This document shows positions 37,906-64,000 of a stretch of 64,000 bases of DNA, piece by piece. The first letter of the stretch is position 1; every line of letters begins with the position of its first letter. The stretch is from a virus. The translations under genes were made by a program, and so were the position numbers. The notes under the pieces are model-generated. The model worked only from the letters and a program-made list of their open reading frames with translations, made no database searches and was not told the DNA's origin. The stretch spans positions 55,981 to 119,980 of IMG/VR virus record IMGVR_UViG_3300042397_001782; one strand, given 5' to 3'.

Positions 37906-38334
37906 ATGGGAAAATATTTTAATGCTTTTATAATGTCCATAATAACTTTTTTTTCTCCTATAGTAGGATTATTATTAGCTGTCGGAGCTATGATTATTTT
38001 AGACACTGTATTAGGAATTACAAAGGCTATTAAAAATGAAGGATGGGAATCTGTTACTTCAAGAAAAGCAAGTGTTATTATAAGTAAATTTTTACTTTAC
38101 CAATTAACAGTAATAACATTTTTTATAATAGACTATAACTTAATAAATGAGTTTACAAAAGTACATTATCAAAACAATTATTTATTAACTAAATTTATAA
38201 CACTCTCTTTATGTTTTGTTGAAGCAAAAAGTATAGATGAAAATATTAAATCTATATTTGGATTTTCTATTTGGACAACCCTAAAAGAAGTTTTAATGAG
38301 AACACAAGAAATAAAAAAAACTATAAAAAAATAA
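37906..38334 (+). CDS. Holin (phage_holin_4-like)
   Basis: 142 aa with hydrophobic helices at about 7-24, 24-43, 65-84 and 94-108. The signature GLLLAVGAMIILDTVLGITKAI...SVTSRKASVIISKFLLYQLTVITFF matches the holin_4 family, whose members open the inner membrane at the end of infection. The C-terminus is basic (MRTQEIKKTIKK). The M15 peptidase gene starts 4 nt after its stop. It is the first gene of the lysis cassette. Confidence 0.8.
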   Translation: MGKYFNAFIMSIITFFSPIVGLLLAVGAMIILDTVLGITKAIKNEGWESVTSRKASVIISKFLLYQLTVITFFIIDYNLINEFTKVHYQNNYLLTKFITLSLCFVEAKSIDENIKSIFGFSIWTTLKEVLMRTQEIKKTIKK

Positions 38335-38338
38335 AATT

Positions 38339-38806
38339 ATGAAATTATCAAAACATTTAGATCTAGCGGAAGTTACAAGATCAGAAACTGCAAAAAGAAA
38401 TGGAGTTAGCAACATACCTACTCCTGAGCATATTGAAAACTTTAAATTATTGGCTGAAAAAATATTCGAGCCTATTAGAGAGCATTTTAATGTTCCTATT
38501 TTTATATCTAGTGGATATAGAAGCAAAGCTTTAAACCAAGCTATTGGTGGGAGTTTAACCTCACAACATTGCCAAGGTGAAGCAATTGATATTGATATGG
38601 ATGGTAGCTCAAGCGGAGTTACTAATGCTCAAGTATTCCAATTCATTAAAGACAACTTGAATTTTGACCAAATGATTTGGGAATTTGGAACAGATAAAAA
38701 TCCTGATTGGGTTCATGTTTCTTATGAATCAACTGGTAAACAAAGAAAACAAATACTTAAAGCCATAAAAGTTAACGGTAAAACAAGTTATGTTCCTTAT
38801 AAATAA
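38339..38806 (+). CDS. Peptidase M15-type peptidoglycan hydrolase
   Basis: 155 aa. ISSGYRS near residue 58, then SQHCQGEAIDIDM (residues about 77-89) supplies the SxHxxGxAxD zinc motif, and DWVHVSYES (near residue 123-131) supplies the second His. These are the hallmarks of M15 (D-Ala-D-Ala carboxypeptidase-type) endolysins that cut peptide cross-links. There is no signal peptide, so export would need the holin. Confidence 0.85.
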   Translation: MKLSKHLDLAEVTRSETAKRNGVSNIPTPEHIENFKLLAEKIFEPIREHFNVPIFISSGYRSKALNQAIGGSLTSQHCQGEAIDIDMDGSSSGVTNAQVFQFIKDNLNFDQMIWEFGTDKNPDWVHVSYESTGKQRKQILKAIKVNGKTSYVPYK

Positions 38807-38838
38807 ATTAAAACTACAAAAACTTAAAAAATAAAACT

Positions 38839-39099
38839 ATGAAATTTTTTAGAGAAATGTTTAGCGATGATAATTCAATTAATGAGAAATCTGTTATTGG
38901 ATTCCTGGCATTTATTATGATGTCCTTATTCGCAATTGTAGATATTGTTACAGGATATTTAGGAAAAGAGCTTGTTGTAAATGAATTTATATTCAATGCT
39001 TTTGAAGTGCTAGTGTTAGGTTCATTTGGTATTGCAGCTACAGAAAAAATTACAAGCATTATAAAATCTAATAAAAACGAAGAAAATGAGTCTGAGTAA
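38839..39099 (+). CDS. Small holin-like membrane protein, 86 aa
   Basis: Two hydrophobic helices (residues about 20-42, NEKSVIGFLAFIMMSLFAIVD and on; and about 52-72, FNAFEVLVLGSFGIAATEK) with a charged C-terminus (SNKNEENESE). The size and two-pass topology suit a class II holin or an antiholin. It overlaps the GH19 gene by 14 nt, so the two are likely co-translated. Together with 37906-38334 this makes two holin-like genes in one cassette. Confidence 0.7.
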   Translation: MKFFREMFSDDNSINEKSVIGFLAFIMMSLFAIVDIVTGYLGKELVVNEFIFNAFEVLVLGSFGIAATEKITSIIKSNKNEENESE

Positions 39100-39697
39100 A
39101 TTACAAGAAAAAATTGGGGTAACTGCTGATGGAGCGTTTGGCCCTGGAACAATGAAAGCTGCTATGGCTTTTTATGGGTTTACACCTGAGAGAGCTGCAC
39201 ACTTTTTTGCACAAACAGCACATGAGTCTGGAAACTTTAAAGCGTTCTCTGAAAACTTAAACTATTCTGCTGACGGATTGGTAAAAATCTTTGGCAAATA
39301 CTTTACAGCGGCCACTGCCCCTAAGTATGCTAGAAACCCTGAAAAAATTGCTAACAAAGTTTATTCTTCTAGAATGGGCAATGGTGACGAAGCTTCAGGA
39401 GATGGCTGGAAATTTAGAGGAAGAGGGGCTCTTCAATTAACTGGTAAATCAAACTATCAAGCATTTTCAGATTATTTGAATAACCCTGATATTATGACTA
39501 ATCCTGACTTAGTTGCAGGTGAGCTTTCTTTTGAGTCTGCTAAATTCTTTTTTGATAAAAACAAACTTTGGGATATATGTGATAAAGGTGTAACCAAAGA
39601 AACTATTTTAGCCCTTACTAAAAGAATAAATGGGGGTACCCATGGTTTGGCTGATAGAGAAGAAAAAACCTTTAAATATTATACATACGTTAAATAA
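39086..39697 (+). CDS. Glycoside hydrolase family 19 endolysin
   Basis: 203 aa. The start (MSLSKLQEKIGVTADGAFGPGTMKAAMAFYGF) is a short peptidoglycan-binding-like segment. It is followed by the GH19 core: HFFAQTAHESGNFKAFSENLNYSADGL with the catalytic Glu of AHESG, DGWKFRGRGALQLTGKSNY, and KRINGGTHGLADREE. It cleaves the glycan strands. It starts within the previous gene and overlaps the next by 1 nt. Confidence 0.9.
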   Translation: MSLSKLQEKIGVTADGAFGPGTMKAAMAFYGFTPERAAHFFAQTAHESGNFKAFSENLNYSADGLVKIFGKYFTAATAPKYARNPEKIANKVYSSRMGNGDEASGDGWKFRGRGALQLTGKSNYQAFSDYLNNPDIMTNPDLVAGELSFESAKFFFDKNKLWDICDKGVTKETILALTKRINGGTHGLADREEKTFKYYTYVK

Positions 39698-40158
39698 TGA
39701 AATATTTATTTATAATTCTTATTGTTTTACTAGCAGTATATATGTGGCTATCACATGATAAGTTTGTTCAAAACGAAGCTATTATACAAAGACTAGAAGA
39801 CAGTTTGTCTAGAAAAGTAGACACCTTGATAGTAGAAAGAGATGTGGTAAAAGACCATTACATTAAATCTAAAGAGATTGTATATAAGATAGACGAAAGA
39901 TACATTGCAGGCAAAGATTCTGTTTGTGATAGCTTAGTAGTAGCCCTAAAAACATCTCTTACAAACTGTGATAAAGTAATAGTTAAATCAGATACTTTAA
40001 TCAAAACCCTTCTTGTGAGAGACACAGTTAGAGTGAAACATATACAATATTTACAGGCAAGAAATAAATTTTCTTTAATAGCTGGCCCAACCCTATCCTT
40101 TACTCCACAAGGAATACAACCTGGTGTTGGTATTGCTTTTGGGCTAAAGATAAAATAA
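39697..40158 (+). CDS. Spanin-like protein with strand-rich C-terminus, 153 aa
   Basis: An N-terminal helix (residues 4-18, LFIILIVLLAVYMWL) is followed by a long charged helical region (residues about 25-120) with heptad-like spacing and Cys at DSVCDSL and LTNCDK. The C-terminus (FSLIAGPTLSFTPQGIQPGVGIAFGLKIK) reads as strands ending like an outer-membrane barrel strand. One protein spanning both membranes would be a unimolecular spanin or an Rz-like i-spanin with an unusual end. Position last in the lysis cassette supports this. Confidence 0.6.
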   Translation: MKYLFIILIVLLAVYMWLSHDKFVQNEAIIQRLEDSLSRKVDTLIVERDVVKDHYIKSKEIVYKIDERYIAGKDSVCDSLVVALKTSLTNCDKVIVKSDTLIKTLLVRDTVRVKHIQYLQARNKFSLIAGPTLSFTPQGIQPGVGIAFGLKIK

Positions 40159-40163
40159 AGCTA

Positions 40164-40193
40164 TTGACAAATAAAATAAATGTTGTATATTTG
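40164..40193 (+). promoter_or_regulatory. Bacteroidota-type promoter of the candidate RNA
   Basis: TTG (40164-40166; TTGAC), a 19-nt spacer, TATATTTG (40186-40193). The expected start near 40200 coincides with the first hairpin of the candidate structured RNA. The -33 box overlaps the end of no gene. Confidence 0.8.
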
Positions 40194-40197
40194 TGCC

Positions 40198-40510
40198 AAA
40201 TTTATCTCACTGAGACAAATTTCTAGTGCCTGACGTTTGAGGGGAAACCCTGGTTCATAAGATTTCACTAGATAGTTTTAAATAAGTAAGGACCTCCGAG
40301 GATTAACAATTCAGATACCTTCAGGGATAGGAGAGGAAAAAATAGGATCAATGACGTAAGAACTGGGCTTCCCAGTTTCCTATTAAAATACACGATAGTA
40401 AATATTCCTAAGTACAGAGATGTATATGGAAATTTATGAACGAACTTACCAATAGAAACAAGATAAATGCGTTTATTGCAAAGTATATTCTGATTTCCTA
40501 GATTTTTTTT
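40198..40510 (+). ncRNA. Candidate structured noncoding RNA, about 310 nt
   Basis: This stretch has no convincing gene but several helices: an 11-position hairpin, AAATTTATCTC (40198-40208) with GAGACAAATTT (40212-40222), one mismatch; a 7-bp long-range helix TCTAGTG (40222-40228) with CACTAGA (40266-40272); within it AGGG-GAAA-CCCT (40240-40251), a GNRA tetraloop; and AACTGGG-CTT-CCCAGTT (40361-40377) stacked on AATAGGA (40341-40347) with TCCTATT (40378-40384). A run of eight T (40503-40510) could mark the 3' end. No known RNA family was recognised. The class (regulatory RNA, ribozyme, riboswitch-like) is unknown. Confidence 0.6.
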
Positions 40511-40615
40511 CTCGGGAGAACCCTCTATTTCTTTAAATAATATACTATAATCTTTAGTACTATTAATATGCTCTAACTATGCCCAAAAAAAATCACAAAA
40601 AATACATTTTTTTCT

Positions 40616-40643
40616 TTGAATTAAAAAAAAAGAAGTATCTTTG
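40616..40643 (+). promoter_or_regulatory. Promoter of the small two-hairpin RNA
   Basis: TTG (40616-40618), a 17-nt spacer, TATCTTTG (40636-40643). The box matches the consensus, with the spacer two nt shorter than in the other cases. The likely start is near 40650. Confidence 0.7.
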
Positions 40644-40649
40644 CGTGAG

Positions 40650-40720
40650 ATAAATATAAAGATAGAGCAATTCTATCGGATACCCCTTGCTGATTCCCTT
40701 TGAGCAAGGGGTATTTTTTT
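40650..40720 (+). ncRNA. Candidate small RNA of about 70 nt, two hairpins
   Basis: Between a good promoter and a strong terminator there is only a short transcript: the stem GATAGA (40661-40666) with TCTATC (40672-40677), loop GCAAT, then the terminator hairpin. No frame of useful length is present. It could be a regulatory RNA or simply the leader and terminator of a short attenuated transcript. Confidence 0.5.
40680..40720 (+). terminator. Strong rho-independent terminator
   Basis: ATACCCCTTGCT (40680-40691) pairs perfectly with AGCAAGGGGTAT (40703-40714), 12 bp, with an 11-nt loop, followed by six further T. It ends the small RNA and may also stop the lysis and RNA transcripts. Confidence 0.9.
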
Positions 40721-40791
40721 ATAAAAACTAATAAAATCATAATTTTTTTTTACTTTTGTGAAAAATTATGTGCAATAAATAAAAAAAGCAT

Positions 40792-40799
40792 TACTTTTG
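40792..40799 (+). promoter_or_regulatory. Promoter -7 box before the phosphoesterase gene
   Basis: TACTTTTG fits TAnnTTTG, 16 nt before ATG 40816 and after the terminator at 40680-40720. A clear TTG at the -33 spacing is absent; TGTGC lies there. Confidence 0.5.
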
Positions 40800-40815
40800 C
40801 ATAAAAAATATAATA

Positions 40816-42033
40816 ATGGTAGCACAAAAAACAATAAATAGATTTTTAAGTTGGAGAGAAAATAATCAAAATTATCTACAATTTGGAAGACCGAGTAAGA
40901 AAACTTTACTTAAAAGACTTAACAGAGAAGGGTTTAACCTTTGTCCAGAAGAATTAAGTTTTTTACTCAAACACTCAGGAAAAAATTCTTTTGTAAAAGA
41001 AAAAATAAATGAAGGGACTAATGTATGGGTTCCTTCGGAAATGGTAGATACAGTTAAAGAACTCAATGCCATCTACCAAGAAAGTAAAAAACTAGGATTA
41101 GATGTGGAAGACGTAAAGCATGGGTGGTTAAAAACACAAGATGCCTCAATGTTCTTCACTAATCCTTTATATAAGAAAAAAGAAGAGGATGGCTTCTATA
41201 ATGAACTAATAGAAGATTTACAAAGTTTTTCTCCTTCTTTTCCTGTCATAAAAAGAACACCTAGTAGTGAGGGCCATTTACTAATTATTGACCCTGCGGA
41301 TATACATGTGGGCAAATTAGCTATGGCTTTTGAAACAGGAGATGAATATAACACTAAAATTGCAGTAGAAAGAGTTTTAAAAGGAGTACAAGGTATTTTA
41401 GACAAGACATCAGGATTTAATATTGACCAAATTCTTTTTGTAGGCGGTAATGATATTTTACATATTGATACTCCAAAAAGAATGACTACTTCTGGTACTC
41501 CTCAAGATACAGATGGAATGTGGTATTCTAATTTCTTGGTAGCCAAGCAGTTGTATGTAGATGTATTAATGATGTTAATGCCAGTGGCAGATGTTCATTT
41601 CACATTTAACCCATCGAACCATGACTACACTAATGGCTTCTTTTTAGCGGATGTTATTAAAACATACTTTAAAGATTGCAAAAATATAACATTTGATTGT
41701 TCTATTGCACACAGAAAGTATTATAAGTATTATAACAACTTAATAGGAACAACTCATGGAGATGGAGCTAGACAAGCAGATTTGCCATTATTAATGGCAC
41801 ATGAAAGTAAAGATTGGAGCGATTGTAAGCATAGGTATATTTATACGCACCATGTGCACCATAAAACTGCTAAAGACCATATAGGGGTAACAATTGAAAG
41901 TTTAAGAAGCCCTAGTGCTTCAGATAGCTGGCACCATCGAAATGGGTATACAGGAGTACCAAAGGCGATAGAAGGGTTTATTCACCACAAAGAATTTGGA
42001 CAAGTGGCAAGGTTAACTCACATATTTATATAA
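40816..42033 (+). CDS. Calcineurin-like metallophosphoesterase (Mre11/SbcD-like), 405 aa
   Basis: After an N-terminal region of about 150 residues, the core shows the metallophosphoesterase pattern: DxH (Asp162, His164 in DPADIHVG), GGND (210-213), NH in NPSNHD (268-269), H in GTTHGDGA (314), and HHVHH (345-349). These bind two metals in phosphoesterases and nucleases such as SbcD. A DNA-processing role or nucleotidase is likely. It has its own promoter, so timing may differ from the lysis genes. Confidence 0.8.
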   Translation: MVAQKTINRFLSWRENNQNYLQFGRPSKKTLLKRLNREGFNLCPEELSFLLKHSGKNSFVKEKINEGTNVWVPSEMVDTVKELNAIYQESKKLGLDVEDVKHGWLKTQDASMFFTNPLYKKKEEDGFYNELIEDLQSFSPSFPVIKRTPSSEGHLLIIDPADIHVGKLAMAFETGDEYNTKIAVERVLKGVQGILDKTSGFNIDQILFVGGNDILHIDTPKRMTTSGTPQDTDGMWYSNFLVAKQLYVDVLMMLMPVADVHFTFNPSNHDYTNGFFLADVIKTYFKDCKNITFDCSIAHRKYYKYYNNLIGTTHGDGARQADLPLLMAHESKDWSDCKHRYIYTHHVHHKTAKDHIGVTIESLRSPSASDSWHHRNGYTGVPKAIEGFIHHKEFGQVARLTHIFI

Positions 42034-58642: not shown

Positions 58643-61600
58643 ATGACTAGAACTGAATTTCTTACAAATATAAGAACAAAATATCCTCAATATAATAATA
58701 TTGACGATAATACTCTTTTTAATAAAATAATTGAAAAATATCCTGTATATAAAAATCAAATTACAGATTTTAACACTCAACAAACCCCAAAACAACAAGC
58801 ACCTGTACAGCAAAACAAAGTTGCTACAGTAAAAAATCAGCCTACTCAAAAAGAGGAGCCAAGTATTTGGGAGAAAACAAAAAGTTTTTTAGGGTTTGGA
58901 GAAGAAGAAACTAAACCTGTAACTACTGCAAAAAAACAACCTGTTACAAAACCTCTTATTAGTCAAGAGTTTGTGGAAAAACTTCCAGAAACTGGTTATC
59001 AGGCACCTAAAGAAACTATTAGTATTTTAGATAATGAGTATGAAAAGAAAAAGAAAGCAGTAGAGGATAAATATAATGCTTTGCAAAATGCTAAAAGTAA
59101 CGTTGAAATATCTAGTTTTTCAGGAGGAATGGGAAGTCAGCCTTCTATAAGATATAAAGTAAATTACAATCAACAAAAACAGTTAGAGTTAGATGCACTA
59201 GATGTAGAAAAAGCAAAAAAACAAGGTAAAAATATTACTCCTGTAGAACAAACCTATTATGGAGTTAAATATGATGAAGCAAAAAAAGCTTCGCAAACTA
59301 AAATTGAAACTTTATCTAAACAAAAGAAAAGTTACAAAGAAGAGTTGGGGAAAGTGGAGGGATTCGCTATGGGTGCAGGAAAAATTATTGGAGGTATAAC
59401 TACAGGTAATCTAGGAATGATAGGAAGAGATGCTTATGCTTCAGTGTTTGGAGCAATAAAAGCAATAAAAAATACTTGGGATCATAACACACAAGTAGAT
59501 GCTCAAATTGCAGAGGAAGAAAGACAAGTACGTCAAACCGAAAGAAAGATAGAACTTAATAAATCAGGGGTATCTGTGTTTAAAAACGTAGACTTAACAA
59601 ATGATGCAGAAGTAATTAAAGCAGCATCATTGATTGATCCTACAATAAAAAGTGATATTAAAGAAGCTAGAAAAAAAATTGGAGAAGAGACCACAAAGCT
59701 TTTCCCTACTGCAATAAAACAAACTAAAGTAAAGGATACAGGGTTTTTATCCGAATTACCTGACTTTAGCTCAATTAACCCAACTATAGCTTTAATAGAA
59801 GGATTTATAAATTATACAAAAGTGGGTAAATTTAAAAACCTTACTTATGAACAATACCAAAGACAAGCGTTAGAAAAATCTCTTAGGGTTCTTGAAAATG
59901 AACAAAATATTGAGTTAACCTCTTATTATGATGATATTCAATCCTCTATTGGGGTACCAAAAACAAAAGTTAATACAAAAATTAACGAGTATATAAATTT
60001 ATCTAATGGATTTAATATAAATGAATTACCTATAGAAGATCAAAAATTATTTAATAATCCTAGTTTTCAAGCATTAGCAAATGTATTTGTAAACAGAAGT
60101 ATTCCTGCAATAGGCGAAGATAAGAAAAAAATCATATCTATGGCTAATATGGATAAGTTTATAGGAGAGAAAAGAAAACTTTTCGGAAATTTAAATAAAG
60201 TGGAAAACATAGGAAAAGAAGAAGCTGTTGCTTCTGCTATTCTTGATAAAAATTTAGAAGAACAAGGTACTTTTAGTTCAGCAGGATTTGATAATTTACT
60301 TTATAATAGTACTAAGTTTTTAACACGATCGGGAGATTTTGTAGTAAATCAAACTGCTGCTGGTGCTCAAATTATTTCTCAAGTTGCTACAGCAGATAAA
60401 TATACTCCAAAATGGACTGAGAAAATTCTTGATAACACAGACTTATTTGATAATCTTACTCAAGAAGATAGCCATTTTAAATTAGACTTCTTAAAAGATG
60501 ATAAATATTATATAGGAGAAACCCCTTCAGGTATAAAATACCACGCAAAGTTAGATGCAGATATGGATATTGAGAATGCATTTGGAGGAGGGTTTGAATA
60601 CACTATTAATAATCCTGAAGTAATGGAAGAAATTGCTAAGGATTTCTATGCTAATAAAGAAAAATATGTAGCTAGTGCTAAAACTTTAGCAGATATTGAA
60701 GGAGGTACTTCTGTTTTTATAGAAAACTTATGGAATAGTGTACAAAAAGAATTCGCTCAAGAAATTCCTTCATTAATTGTTGAAGGAGGGGCAGGTAGAG
60801 TTGTAGGAGCAGCCATTGGAACTATTTCTGATGCAGATAAAGCTAGGAGAGTAGCTAGAGGAGCTGATTTTTTAATTAATACTGCAAGTGCCATGACCGA
60901 AATGTATCCTTCTATATATAAAAAGTATAAGGAAGCAGCGGAGGATAAAGATAATCATATGCCTGCTTTATTGGCTTCAGGGGCATTAGCAATGGGTACT
61001 TATATGACTTCTTTCTTGCAGTCAAAAGCTATTGGATTAAATGGAGATTTTAGTACTCAAAGAATTATGCCTGGAGCTATAGATGCTACTTTAGAAACAG
61101 CAAGAATTCTTAGAAAAGAATTGGCCAACGTAGCTGATTTATCATTAAGAGAAAAACTTTTCAATGCAAATCTAAGAAAAGCTATGTATCAAAATGTGAT
61201 GAAAGTTGCAGGACAATCTATGAAAGATGCTGCTAGATCTGGATTGGAAGAAGGTGCTGAGGAAGTTATTTTAGAACCACTTATTAATCTAGGAGTAAAC
61301 TTCTTGAATGAAAAAATTACAGGAGATAAAGCTTATAATCAAGAAAGTTTGGCAGATTTAAATTTTTTAGACCCAAACACTGCAGCAGTATCTGCATTGA
61401 CTGGAAGTAGTTTATCTACAGGAATGGATTTGATGAAAGCTATGACTTCAAAAAATCCATATTCAAGAGAGGATTATTTAAAAGCAGCCTTTGAAAATGA
61501 AGCTACCTTTACTTCTTATGTAGATGTAATGACAGAAAGTAGTAGTAATAAATTTTCTAAGGAAGATCAAGCTAAAATGATGACTGATTATAAAGCACTA

Positions 61601-64000
61601 AAAGATGCTTATAATGCTAAAAAATCTGAACTTGGTGTAAATGAAGAAGCTCTTTCTACATTAAACTTTAAAAACCCTATCATTAAATCAATGATGGGTA
61701 ATATAGGACTAAGAGAAGAAGATTTAGAAAAAGTAAACAGTGAAAAGACTTTTGATAATGCTATTATCAGACAATCTCTTAATGAAAGAGATTTGGCTGA
61801 AAAGAAAATTGCATTGGATGAAGAAGTTGAAAAAGGAAATTTAACTGTTAATGCACAAGGAGCCTACAAAACAGTAGGGTCAAATCCTTTGACAAAGGAA
61901 CTAGAAACTAAAGTATCTGAATTTGAAAAACTACAATTAAGTAGCAATAATTTGTCTACTTTTATAGACACTTTTAACAAAGGTACTAAAAATGTACAAA
62001 AAGAGTACGTTTTGGAGATGGACGAAGCTACTTCTGCGGCACCTGATATTTTAGATGTTAAAAATAGTTCAGAAGGTAGTTATGCTTACAAGGCATTAAG
62101 TACTTCTGTCATGGATAAGCAAATGGCAGTGTCTCAATTAGCTGAAGTAAACACTAAGATAAATGATGCTAAACTAGATGGCCAAGATACTAAAGATCTA
62201 GAAGTTACTAAAAAAGAATTAGAAACTACTATAAAGAATAGTGATAAAGCAATTAATAACATTAAAAAACAATACAAAGCAGGTAGAACAGAGACTCAAT
62301 TAGAAGTAGAATCTAAGTTGAGAGATGTAAATACTGCTCAATCTGTTTTAGCAGAAAAATTGCGTATCCTTGCTCAAGTAGAAGCTTCTGGAGAAGAAGT
62401 GGATAACTCTGAAGTAGATCAAGTATTTTCTGAATATGAGAATACAGTAAAAGAATTAAACAAAGCTAACAACAAACTTAAAAAAGGGTATGGAGTTAGC
62501 TTAGTGAATAAAGAATATAAGCCTATGACAAGGCAAAGTTTTACTGAATTAAAAGAAAAAATTAAAGAAAAAAATGTTGTATCAGAGAAAGTAGCTGGGG
62601 GAAAAGCTACTTTAGGAGAATTAGAAAGTTTGTTAAGTCTAGAATATGAAACAGGTTCTAAAGAATTTACAGGAAGAACAGATATAACTACACCTAAAAC
62701 AAAGGAAGATATTGATGCTATTTTATCCAATAATGAACAACTTTATGAAGTGGCAAAAAGACTTGGTTTAGATAATAAAAAATCTTTAGCTCAAACTAAA
62801 AAAGCAGTTAAATCTTATCTTACAAAACAATTATCTTCTCAAGACGAGACTAAATTGGAAAGTATTTCTGCAATATTTTCACCAAAAACAGTGGTACAGA
62901 AAAATGGAAGTACATTATTTGAGGTGAATGGCGAATTGTTCTTACCTGTAGGTAATACAACGTCTATGGCTACAATGAGTGAGGAGGAAAAAAACACTGT
63001 ATTGACAAATGCTGTTATTACTGAAATAGCTAAACAAATATTTAATAATGCTTTAGTTTATACCCCATATAATCTTAGACAACTTATAAACAAAGTTATA
63101 GTTGATTCAGGGTTTGATACTGAAATTTCAATTAATGAAAACACTTTGAATATTATTATTGCTACTATTTCAGAGTTAAAATCAGACTTAGATGCTAATG
63201 GGTTTGCTTATAAGTTAAATGACGATGTAGTTACAAGTAATTTTCTATATCTATCTTTTGATAGAGGATATGAAGGAATGTCTACCCCACCTATATTAAC
63301 TGTAGTGGATAATGAAGGAAATGTACATTTAATTGATTTCCGATCATACTCTGATAATTATGTTGCAGATACTAATACATGGTCCAAAGAGCTTACAGAA
63401 ATGCAAGGGATTTTTGCTGATAATGGTATATCAGTATCTTCAATTAATGTATTACCAATACGAGTAAATAACTCTTATAGTACTGCAAACGGCTTAACTA
63501 CCTTAAATATAAATAAACAATCTTTTAATGTTATAGCTAACAATGATAACCCTATTAGTAAAACTCTTTTACAGTTGGCCAATGACCTACCTACTTTAGA
63601 AAATCTACAAGAAGAAGGTCTTTTAACAGAGGAAGAAGTAGAAGAATTTGCGCTTATTCCTATGGAAGAAGGAGTTACTGAAGATAAAACGGTAGAGAAA
63701 GAATTACCTTTTACAGAGCAAGAGTATGATGAAATGGTTTCAAATGAATTTGAAAATGTTAGTGATACTATAGTAGAAAAACTAAGAAATAAAATTACTA
63801 ATGGAGAGAAATTATCTCCAAAAGAGTTTGATGTTGTTAGTTTTGCAGAAGGAAAATTCACAGAAGAAGAAATCTCAAAAGCAAGAGAAAAATACATTGA
63901 AATTGATTTAACTCCTATAGATATTCCTACTACTGAAGAAGAAATAAAAGCAGAAGAAGTAAATAAGCCTGCGGAAACTATTGGAGAAAATATAATAGAA
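58643..64000 (+). CDS. Giant virion protein, partial (at least 1786 codons), with degenerate PD-(D/E)XK-like segment
   Basis: ATG at 58643 (MTRTEFLTNIRTKYPQYNNIDDNTLFNKI) and open to the right edge, so the C-terminus is missing. The first 130 residues are Gln/Lys/Pro-rich. Glycine-rich stretches at about 245-265 and 715-730 (IPSLIVEGGAGRVVGAAIGTI) might touch membranes. Long helical, Asn/Lys/Glu-rich regions fill the rest. Residues about 1530-1605 read ILTVVDNEGNVHLIDFRSY...LPIRV, a PD-(D/E)XK nuclease-like pattern with Asp1565 and Arg1567 in place of the usual Lys. It is probably an ejected protein of the head. The gene is complete outside this window. Confidence 0.7.
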   Translation, partial: MTRTEFLTNIRTKYPQYNNIDDNTLFNKIIEKYPVYKNQITDFNTQQTPKQQAPVQQNKVATVKNQPTQKEEPSIWEKTKSFLGFGEEETKPVTTAKKQPVTKPLISQEFVEKLPETGYQAPKETISILDNEYEKKKKAVEDKYNALQNAKSNVEISSFSGGMGSQPSIRYKVNYNQQKQLELDALDVEKAKKQGKNITPVEQTYYGVKYDEAKKASQTKIETLSKQKKSYKEELGKVEGFAMGAGKIIGGITTGNLGMIGRDAYASVFGAIKAIKNTWDHNTQVDAQIAEEERQVRQTERKIELNKSGVSVFKNVDLTNDAEVIKAASLIDPTIKSDIKEARKKIGEETTKLFPTAIKQTKVKDTGFLSELPDFSSINPTIALIEGFINYTKVGKFKNLTYEQYQRQALEKSLRVLENEQNIELTSYYDDIQSSIGVPKTKVNTKINEYINLSNGFNINELPIEDQKLFNNPSFQALANVFVNRSIPAIGEDKKKIISMANMDKFIGEKRKLFGNLNKVENIGKEEAVASAILDKNLEEQGTFSSAGFDNLLYNSTKFLTRSGDFVVNQTAAGAQIISQVATADKYTPKWTEKILDNTDLFDNLTQEDSHFKLDFLKDDKYYIGETPSGIKYHAKLDADMDIENAFGGGFEYTINNPEVMEEIAKDFYANKEKYVASAKTLADIEGGTSVFIENLWNSVQKEFAQEIPSLIVEGGAGRVVGAAIGTISDADKARRVARGADFLINTASAMTEMYPSIYKKYKEAAEDKDNHMPALLASGALAMGTYMTSFLQSKAIGLNGDFSTQRIMPGAIDATLETARILRKELANVADLSLREKLFNANLRKAMYQNVMKVAGQSMKDAARSGLEEGAEEVILEPLINLGVNFLNEKITGDKAYNQESLADLNFLDPNTAAVSALTGSSLSTGMDLMKAMTSKNPYSREDYLKAAFENEATFTSYVDVMTESSSNKFSKEDQAKMMTDYKALKDAYNAKKSELGVNEEALSTLNFKNPIIKSMMGNIGLREEDLEKVNSEKTFDNAIIRQSLNERDLAEKKIALDEEVEKGNLTVNAQGAYKTVGSNPLTKELETKVSEFEKLQLSSNNLSTFIDTFNKGTKNVQKEYVLEMDEATSAAPDILDVKNSSEGSYAYKALSTSVMDKQMAVSQLAEVNTKINDAKLDGQDTKDLEVTKKELETTIKNSDKAINNIKKQYKAGRTETQLEVESKLRDVNTAQSVLAEKLRILAQVEASGEEVDNSEVDQVFSEYENTVKELNKANNKLKKGYGVSLVNKEYKPMTRQSFTELKEKIKEKNVVSEKVAGGKATLGELESLLSLEYETGSKEFTGRTDITTPKTKEDIDAILSNNEQLYEVAKRLGLDNKKSLAQTKKAVKSYLTKQLSSQDETKLESISAIFSPKTVVQKNGSTLFEVNGELFLPVGNTTSMATMSEEEKNTVLTNAVITEIAKQIFNNALVYTPYNLRQLINKVIVDSGFDTEISINENTLNIIIATISELKSDLDANGFAYKLNDDVVTSNFLYLSFDRGYEGMSTPPILTVVDNEGNVHLIDFRSYSDNYVADTNTWSKELTEMQGIFADNGISVSSINVLPIRVNNSYSTANGLTTLNINKQSFNVIANNDNPISKTLLQLANDLPTLENLQEEGLLTEEEVEEFALIPMEEGVTEDKTVEKELPFTEQEYDEMVSNEFENVSDTIVEKLRNKITNGEKLSPKEFDVVSFAEGKFTEEEISKAREKYIEIDLTPIDIPTTEEEIKAEEVNKPAETIGENIIE

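Follow-up and report, generated by a model that had tools for sequence, protein, structure and literature searches.

What occupies a 657-nt gap between the genes of a phage when no protein-coding gene can be found to fill it? The gap lies in the DNA analysed here, a stretch of 64 kb at the right-hand end of a virus record 119,980 bases long; this whole stretch is hereafter called the window (W). PHROG matches in the window to terminase, portal and major head protein, together with a terminase tblastn search that led to crAss-like phages, Cellulophaga phage phi14:2 among them (best listed identity 33.8%), place the phage among the crAss-like phages and close to phages of Flavobacteriia; its host is probably of the Flavobacteriia type. 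A sequence-only reading had proposed that the gap holds a structured RNA (40198-40510) expressed separately from the genes around it. From comparison of homologous sequences, the case for a conserved, structured phage RNA holds and is stronger than that reading supposed, and we interpret the locus, with moderate confidence, as a freestanding noncoding RNA gene carried by a crAss-like phage, acting in trans and representing a new RNA family, its expression, tertiary docking, action in trans and target all being inferred.

The gap and the folded core

The gap (40159-40815) separates two complete open reading frames (ORFs), one ending at 40158 and the next beginning at 40816. Upstream stand two endolysin-like genes followed by a small unassigned ORF, and downstream a gene of the PHROG ‘DNA repair exonuclease’ family. 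The absence of genes claimed for the gap withstood comparison: nothing in 40159-40815 passes as a plausible gene, and W and the homologous loci L090, L143 and L172 keep no reading frame, their longest stop-to-stop frames (84, 58, 50 and 49 codons, respectively) not being one common frame. A protein-coding homologue aligning across the stretch had been named beforehand as grounds for refutation, and none does. Elsewhere in the window, the lysis genes (37906-39697) are mosaic among close relatives, each being ~99% or ~85% identical or unmatched in varying combinations, and a single open frame of 1786 codons (58643-64000) runs past the window's end, where the record stops as well.

The folded core comprises about 315 nt (~40210-40522, on the + strand like its helices and the promoter and terminator described below). 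Its ends would be joined by a terminal helix, P1 (CUGAG/CUCGG, 40210-40214/40511-40515), and a pseudoknot, PK (GGUUC/GAACC, 40252-40256/40518-40522), whose 3' limit falls outside the interval first proposed. Both form 5/5 pairs in 11/11 sequences, but because each contains a single doubly changed pair (G-C to A-U in P1; C-G to G-U in the L143/L172 lineage in PK) they are, on the sequences available, probable rather than proven. The P2 helix (40222-40228/40266-40272) encloses the P2a hairpin (40240..40251), and P3a (40275-40279/40455-40459), separated by an internal loop from P3b (40286-40290/40445-40449), closes a main domain; in P3b, GUAAG/CUUAC is replaced by GGUAG/CUACU and by GAUAG/CUAUC. 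Within this domain lie P4 (40294-40297/40330-40333 and 40298-40301/40318-40321), predicted by RNAalifold and invariant apart from a single G-U to C-G double change; P5, in which an outer helix (40341-40347/40378-40384) is stacked on a hairpin (40361-40367/40371-40377) with a one-sided bulge (40348-40360); and P6 (40393..40442), which carries an 11-nt tetraloop receptor in 11/11 sequences and a GNRA loop varying between GAGA, GAAA, GUGA and GCAA on a stem where C-G/A-U becomes U-A/G-C.

The closing helix P3, P4, P6 with its receptor, the terminal helix and the pseudoknot were all missing from the fold as originally drawn. Its stacked helices in P5 are upheld by covariation, seven pairs of P5 having changed on both sides, and the bulge is kept while its length and sequence vary. 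Its hairpin at the 5' end (AUUUAUCUC-ACU-GAGACAAAU, 40200..40221) is doubtful: the inverted repeat is there, but a pair is lost in each of L091 and L172, and the bases can alternatively pair with the 3' end, making the hairpin an alternative to P1. Two further pairings were excluded, one between the ACGU of the P2 loop and that of the P5 bulge, seen by eye and too short, and one a downstream helix with AACC in L091, L143 and L172 that is not present in W.

Covariation in homologues had been set beforehand as the test of the proposal, and it was found in both the main and the 5' domain. On A7, an alignment of the main domain from 11 matches (10 distinct rows), a 34-pair structure is paired in 99.4% of 334 cells and 12/34 pairs are doubly changed; shuffles gave a mean of 5.3 such pairs, none of 500 reaching 12, and slid controls gave 0-2. 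RNAalifold on the same alignment predicted 47 pairs, of which 17 had changed on both sides with pairing kept. On A8, the alignment of the 5' domain (5 distinct rows), the proposed 7-bp helix P2 around the GAAA hairpin proved sound, with 55/55 cells paired and double changes in 4/11 pairs, three of them in the stem below the GAAA loop. A7 was fitted to a hand-derived structure drawn from four of its own rows, and there are few independent change events because there are only three lineages. The MAFFT alignments A1 and A6, in which 1-nt indels were misplaced, and L002, which contains an N, were left out of the pair counts. Folding energy is unexceptional (z = -0.72; 17/100 shuffles at least as stable), and the case therefore depends on comparative evidence.

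The P2a loop (40244-40247) is GAAA, and CCUAAG/UAUGG (40407-40412/40425-40429) is present in P6, in 11/11 sequences, together forming what we take to be the classical GAAA/11-nt receptor pair, while the adjoining stems vary: P2 covaries (G-C to A-U, A-U to G-U) and the stem of the GAAA loop is replaced in the distant lineage (AGGG/CCCU to AACU/AGUU). By chance, CCTAAG-N6-16-TATGG would be expected 0.46 times per 64 kb, and its one occurrence is at P6. A GAAA tetraloop and its 11-nt receptor are hallmarks of compact ribozyme-like RNAs.

Promoter, terminator and relatives

The consensus promoter said to point into the gap is indeed there: TTG-N19-TATATTTG (40164..40193), of the Bacteroidota sigma-A type, is the sole exact match in the 64-kb window, where 17 matches with at most one mismatch were found against 5.85 expected. 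The TAnnTTTG box of Flavobacterium psychrophilum occupies -12 to -5 (PMC9723704), which would put the predicted +1 at 40198. A TAnnTTTG box stands ahead of the RNA, at a near-constant distance, in 11/11 sequences. An intrinsic terminator that the original description lacked (40680..40720) combines a covarying stem of -20.6 kcal/mol with a T-tract at +516, and with the -12/-5 rule it delimits a predicted primary transcript of ~523 nt (40198..40720). A stem and T-tract follow the RNA at +405 to +527 in 11/11 sequences; a simpler terminator scan detected a single site in W and none in L143 or L172, in both of which folding revealed the stem. The terminator loop UUCCCUUU is invariant in five aligned sequences. 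Taken at the level of sequence, promoter and terminator, the lack of a conserved ORF and covariation meet what would be asked of an autonomous RNA gene and support that designation.

Beyond the window's own record, which holds a single copy, the RNA occurs in 19 IMG/VR contigs, representing three lineages (W-type, L090/L091-type and L143/L172-type) in two unrelated genomic settings. Sixteen of these contigs, recovered by related-locus search and pattern scans, belong to the window's own clade, with gaps 78-100% identical where measured. A covariance model built on the main domain (R1) located the RNA in the record of L102 (E = 1.9e-17), and the last pattern scan added L177, which has an equal main-domain score, and the distinct L172. 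Within the window's clade, L090/L091 match 40215-40336 at 97% identity; the proteins encoded on either side reach 51-53% (upstream) and 34-77% (downstream) in this comparison, and the whole core from P1 to PK 82-84%, about the level of two neighbouring genes (74-84% over three genes), and core identity between W and L143 is 64%. In L143 and L172 the RNA has divergent gene sets on either side and small genes downstream of it and lies away from lysis and tail genes, and the syntenic gap in L102, L104 and phi14:2 measures just 99, 111 and 77 nt; the RNA is therefore an independent unit. The earlier proposal of a structured RNA separate from its neighbours is thus strongly supported by covariation, conservation above the flanks, promoter and terminator sequences in 11/11 sequences and a different location in relatives.

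Eight other crAss-like or Flavobacterium phage records gave no RNA match above chance and FpV4 gave none; in 395 Bacteroidota genomes the RNA was not found, a weak negative given strict filters. DNA similarity to 50,697 phage records yielded short matches only, all 20 listed falling in the gap's 3' part, which is rich in A/T, and a DNA similarity search with the distant homologue yielded no match. The exonuclease-like downstream gene proved a poor guide to relatives: of at least 596 loci it led to, the 80 best were retained, and 74 of these 80 had no above-chance match to the RNA. Pattern-scan matches L106, L116, L119 and L121 (4/20) and 30/49 matches of the last scan were rejected as chance, both sets having been read, and all nine genome matches of a pattern scan were rejected for want of an R1 match at E<=5. 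Weak matches to R1 or a second model, R2 (E 0.0076 to 0.8), were also rejected: the three aligned phage-record matches (phi14:2, cr1_1 and cr116_1) because the receptor is missing, and the record of L144 because it has no R2 match at E<=1.

Two observations were made alongside. The RNA at L120:3394-3715 looks recombinant, with a W-type promoter and first ~110 nt followed by L091-type sequence. Upstream of the divergent gene in L143 (2990-3100) and L172 (8280-8380) lies a conserved hairpin-rich leader; nothing in the window resembles a 19-nt piece of it, and in L143 its only Rfam matches, TD-1 and FuFi-1, fall below threshold.

Alternative readings

Conserved noncoding phage DNA is frequently a replication origin or packaging site, and the palindromes of the locus might merely resemble RNA helices. 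We regard such a DNA-level element as highly improbable, for a GNRA loop with its receptor is an RNA motif, a promoter and a terminator lie on either side, and variation differs between the strands: of 434 cells read on the + strand, 34 are G-U and 2 are A-C, an excess that points to RNA from that strand, with the caveat that the pairs had been selected as RNA pairs and the count is somewhat biased. Structured RNAs are also used by retron/DGR, TnpB/IscB, tmRNA and group I intron systems, all possible in phages, so that the RNA could be the template, guide or other RNA part of a known system nearby. That reading is largely refuted and retains only a vanishing chance. Reverse transcriptase (retron/DGR) was found in 0/4 records, the window's own included (control positive in 3/14 genomes), as was TnpB/Cas12f-like protein (control positive in 6/14), and ARAGORN found 0 tRNA and 0 tmRNA genes in the 64-kb window. 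At the gathering threshold no Rfam model matched the window; at E<=10, the 14 weak matches in 40150-40830 all lie past 40590 in A/T-rich sequence and none in the core; at E<=1, three homologous loci gave no match. Models unmatched in all three comparisons include GOLLD/ROOL, introns, RNase P and self-cleaving ribozymes, and the HEARO model, presumably that of the IscB guide RNA, matched neither window nor homologous loci. The original inability to place the RNA among tmRNA, RNase P RNA, group I introns or common self-cleaving ribozymes extends to a covariance search in which the core stayed unmatched, even permissively, in the lineages tested.

Two other possibilities, catalysis and cis-antitermination, are not excluded. 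Group I and II introns and RNase P RNA feature a GAAA tetraloop/11-nt receptor and a pseudoknot, and these, with long invariant stretches, give the present RNA a build like that of large ribozymes, in which a receptor-stabilised fold would serve catalysis, by self-processing or on another RNA. Against this stand the absence of any match to the Rfam ribozyme, intron or RNase P models, a location between genes that leaves nothing to be spliced together and no gene interrupted, a helix order that in our reading differs, and the presence of the same motifs in non-catalytic RNAs; a new large ribozyme is accordingly unlikely, although it ranks next after action in trans. A fuller version, in which a movable, stand-alone phage gene would supply a new class of tertiary-folded catalytic RNA (~315 nt, GAAA/11-nt receptor, end-closing pseudoknot) for use on host RNA during infection, is more tentative still. 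Ranking third, and doubtful, is a cis-acting leader, put-like or riboswitch-like, that would govern read-through of the terminator into the downstream operon. In the W, L143 and L172 settings a promoter is followed in turn by the RNA, a terminator and an operon, which fits it, and a cis role cannot be excluded because a gene in the same direction follows the terminator in all three; the HK022 put RNA, a phage element between promoter and terminator to which only the layout was compared, offers a precedent for antitermination in cis (PMC9378689). In W, L143 and L172, however, TAnnTTTG-like promoter sequences lie between the terminator and the gene that comes next, a strong terminator in 11/11 sequences suits the end of an RNA gene, and the downstream gene varies with the setting. 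L104, moreover, encodes a downstream protein 80% identical to that of the window behind its 111-nt gap, with no RNA in the L104 contig.

Proposed mode of action

The reading we prefer, a trans-acting RNA gene, draws on the conservation, secondary structure, promoter and terminator sequences and independence from flanking genes established here; against it count the lack of transcript data and the restriction to three lineages. Host sigma-A RNA polymerase would initiate at ~40198 and terminate at 40714-40720. In the resulting core (40210-40522), P1 and the pseudoknot would join the ends, a P2/P2a arm would be capped by GAAA, and the large domain closed by P3 would contain P4, P5 and P6. Most likely the GAAA loop docks into the 11-nt receptor of P6, an inferred contact that would fix a compact shape displaying the highly conserved unpaired bases of the P2 internal loop, the P3 internal loop and the P4-P5 joiner. 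So presented, the RNA may act in trans; its likeliest role is that of a structured scaffold or inhibitor that binds a macromolecule of the host or the phage.

Large orphan phage RNAs as such are already known. GOLLD and ROOL, of unknown function, are encoded by phages and prophages, GOLLD often exceeding 800 nt and a solved ROOL measuring 659 nt, and tRNA islands are often found close to both (PMC12286853). As far as that source can be compared, the present RNA shares with them phage origin, an elaborate conserved fold and an unknown function, and differs in its core of ~315 nt, the absence of tRNA genes from the 64 kb and the lack of an Rfam match. In the accessible portion of the literature on noncoding RNAs of crAss-like or Flavobacterium phages, nothing was found on such an RNA, and as far as these searches go the family is undescribed. 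Without a match in Rfam 15, it yet has the architecture of RNAs with elaborate jobs; first spotted by eye in one window, it has survived comparative testing, adds to the few large orphan phage RNAs at a size that suits structural work, gives an entry point to RNA use by crAss-like phages and probably represents a viral RNA tool of a new kind.

Within the predicted transcript lies a second, nested promoter-like box (TATCTTTG, 40636-40643), from which a short RNA (~40648-40720) ending at the same terminator could arise. Near the start of this nested promoter, every base of the 11-nt stretch 40645-40655 has its complement in 40200-40210 at the RNA's 5' end, a complementarity absent in L090 and present in W and L003.
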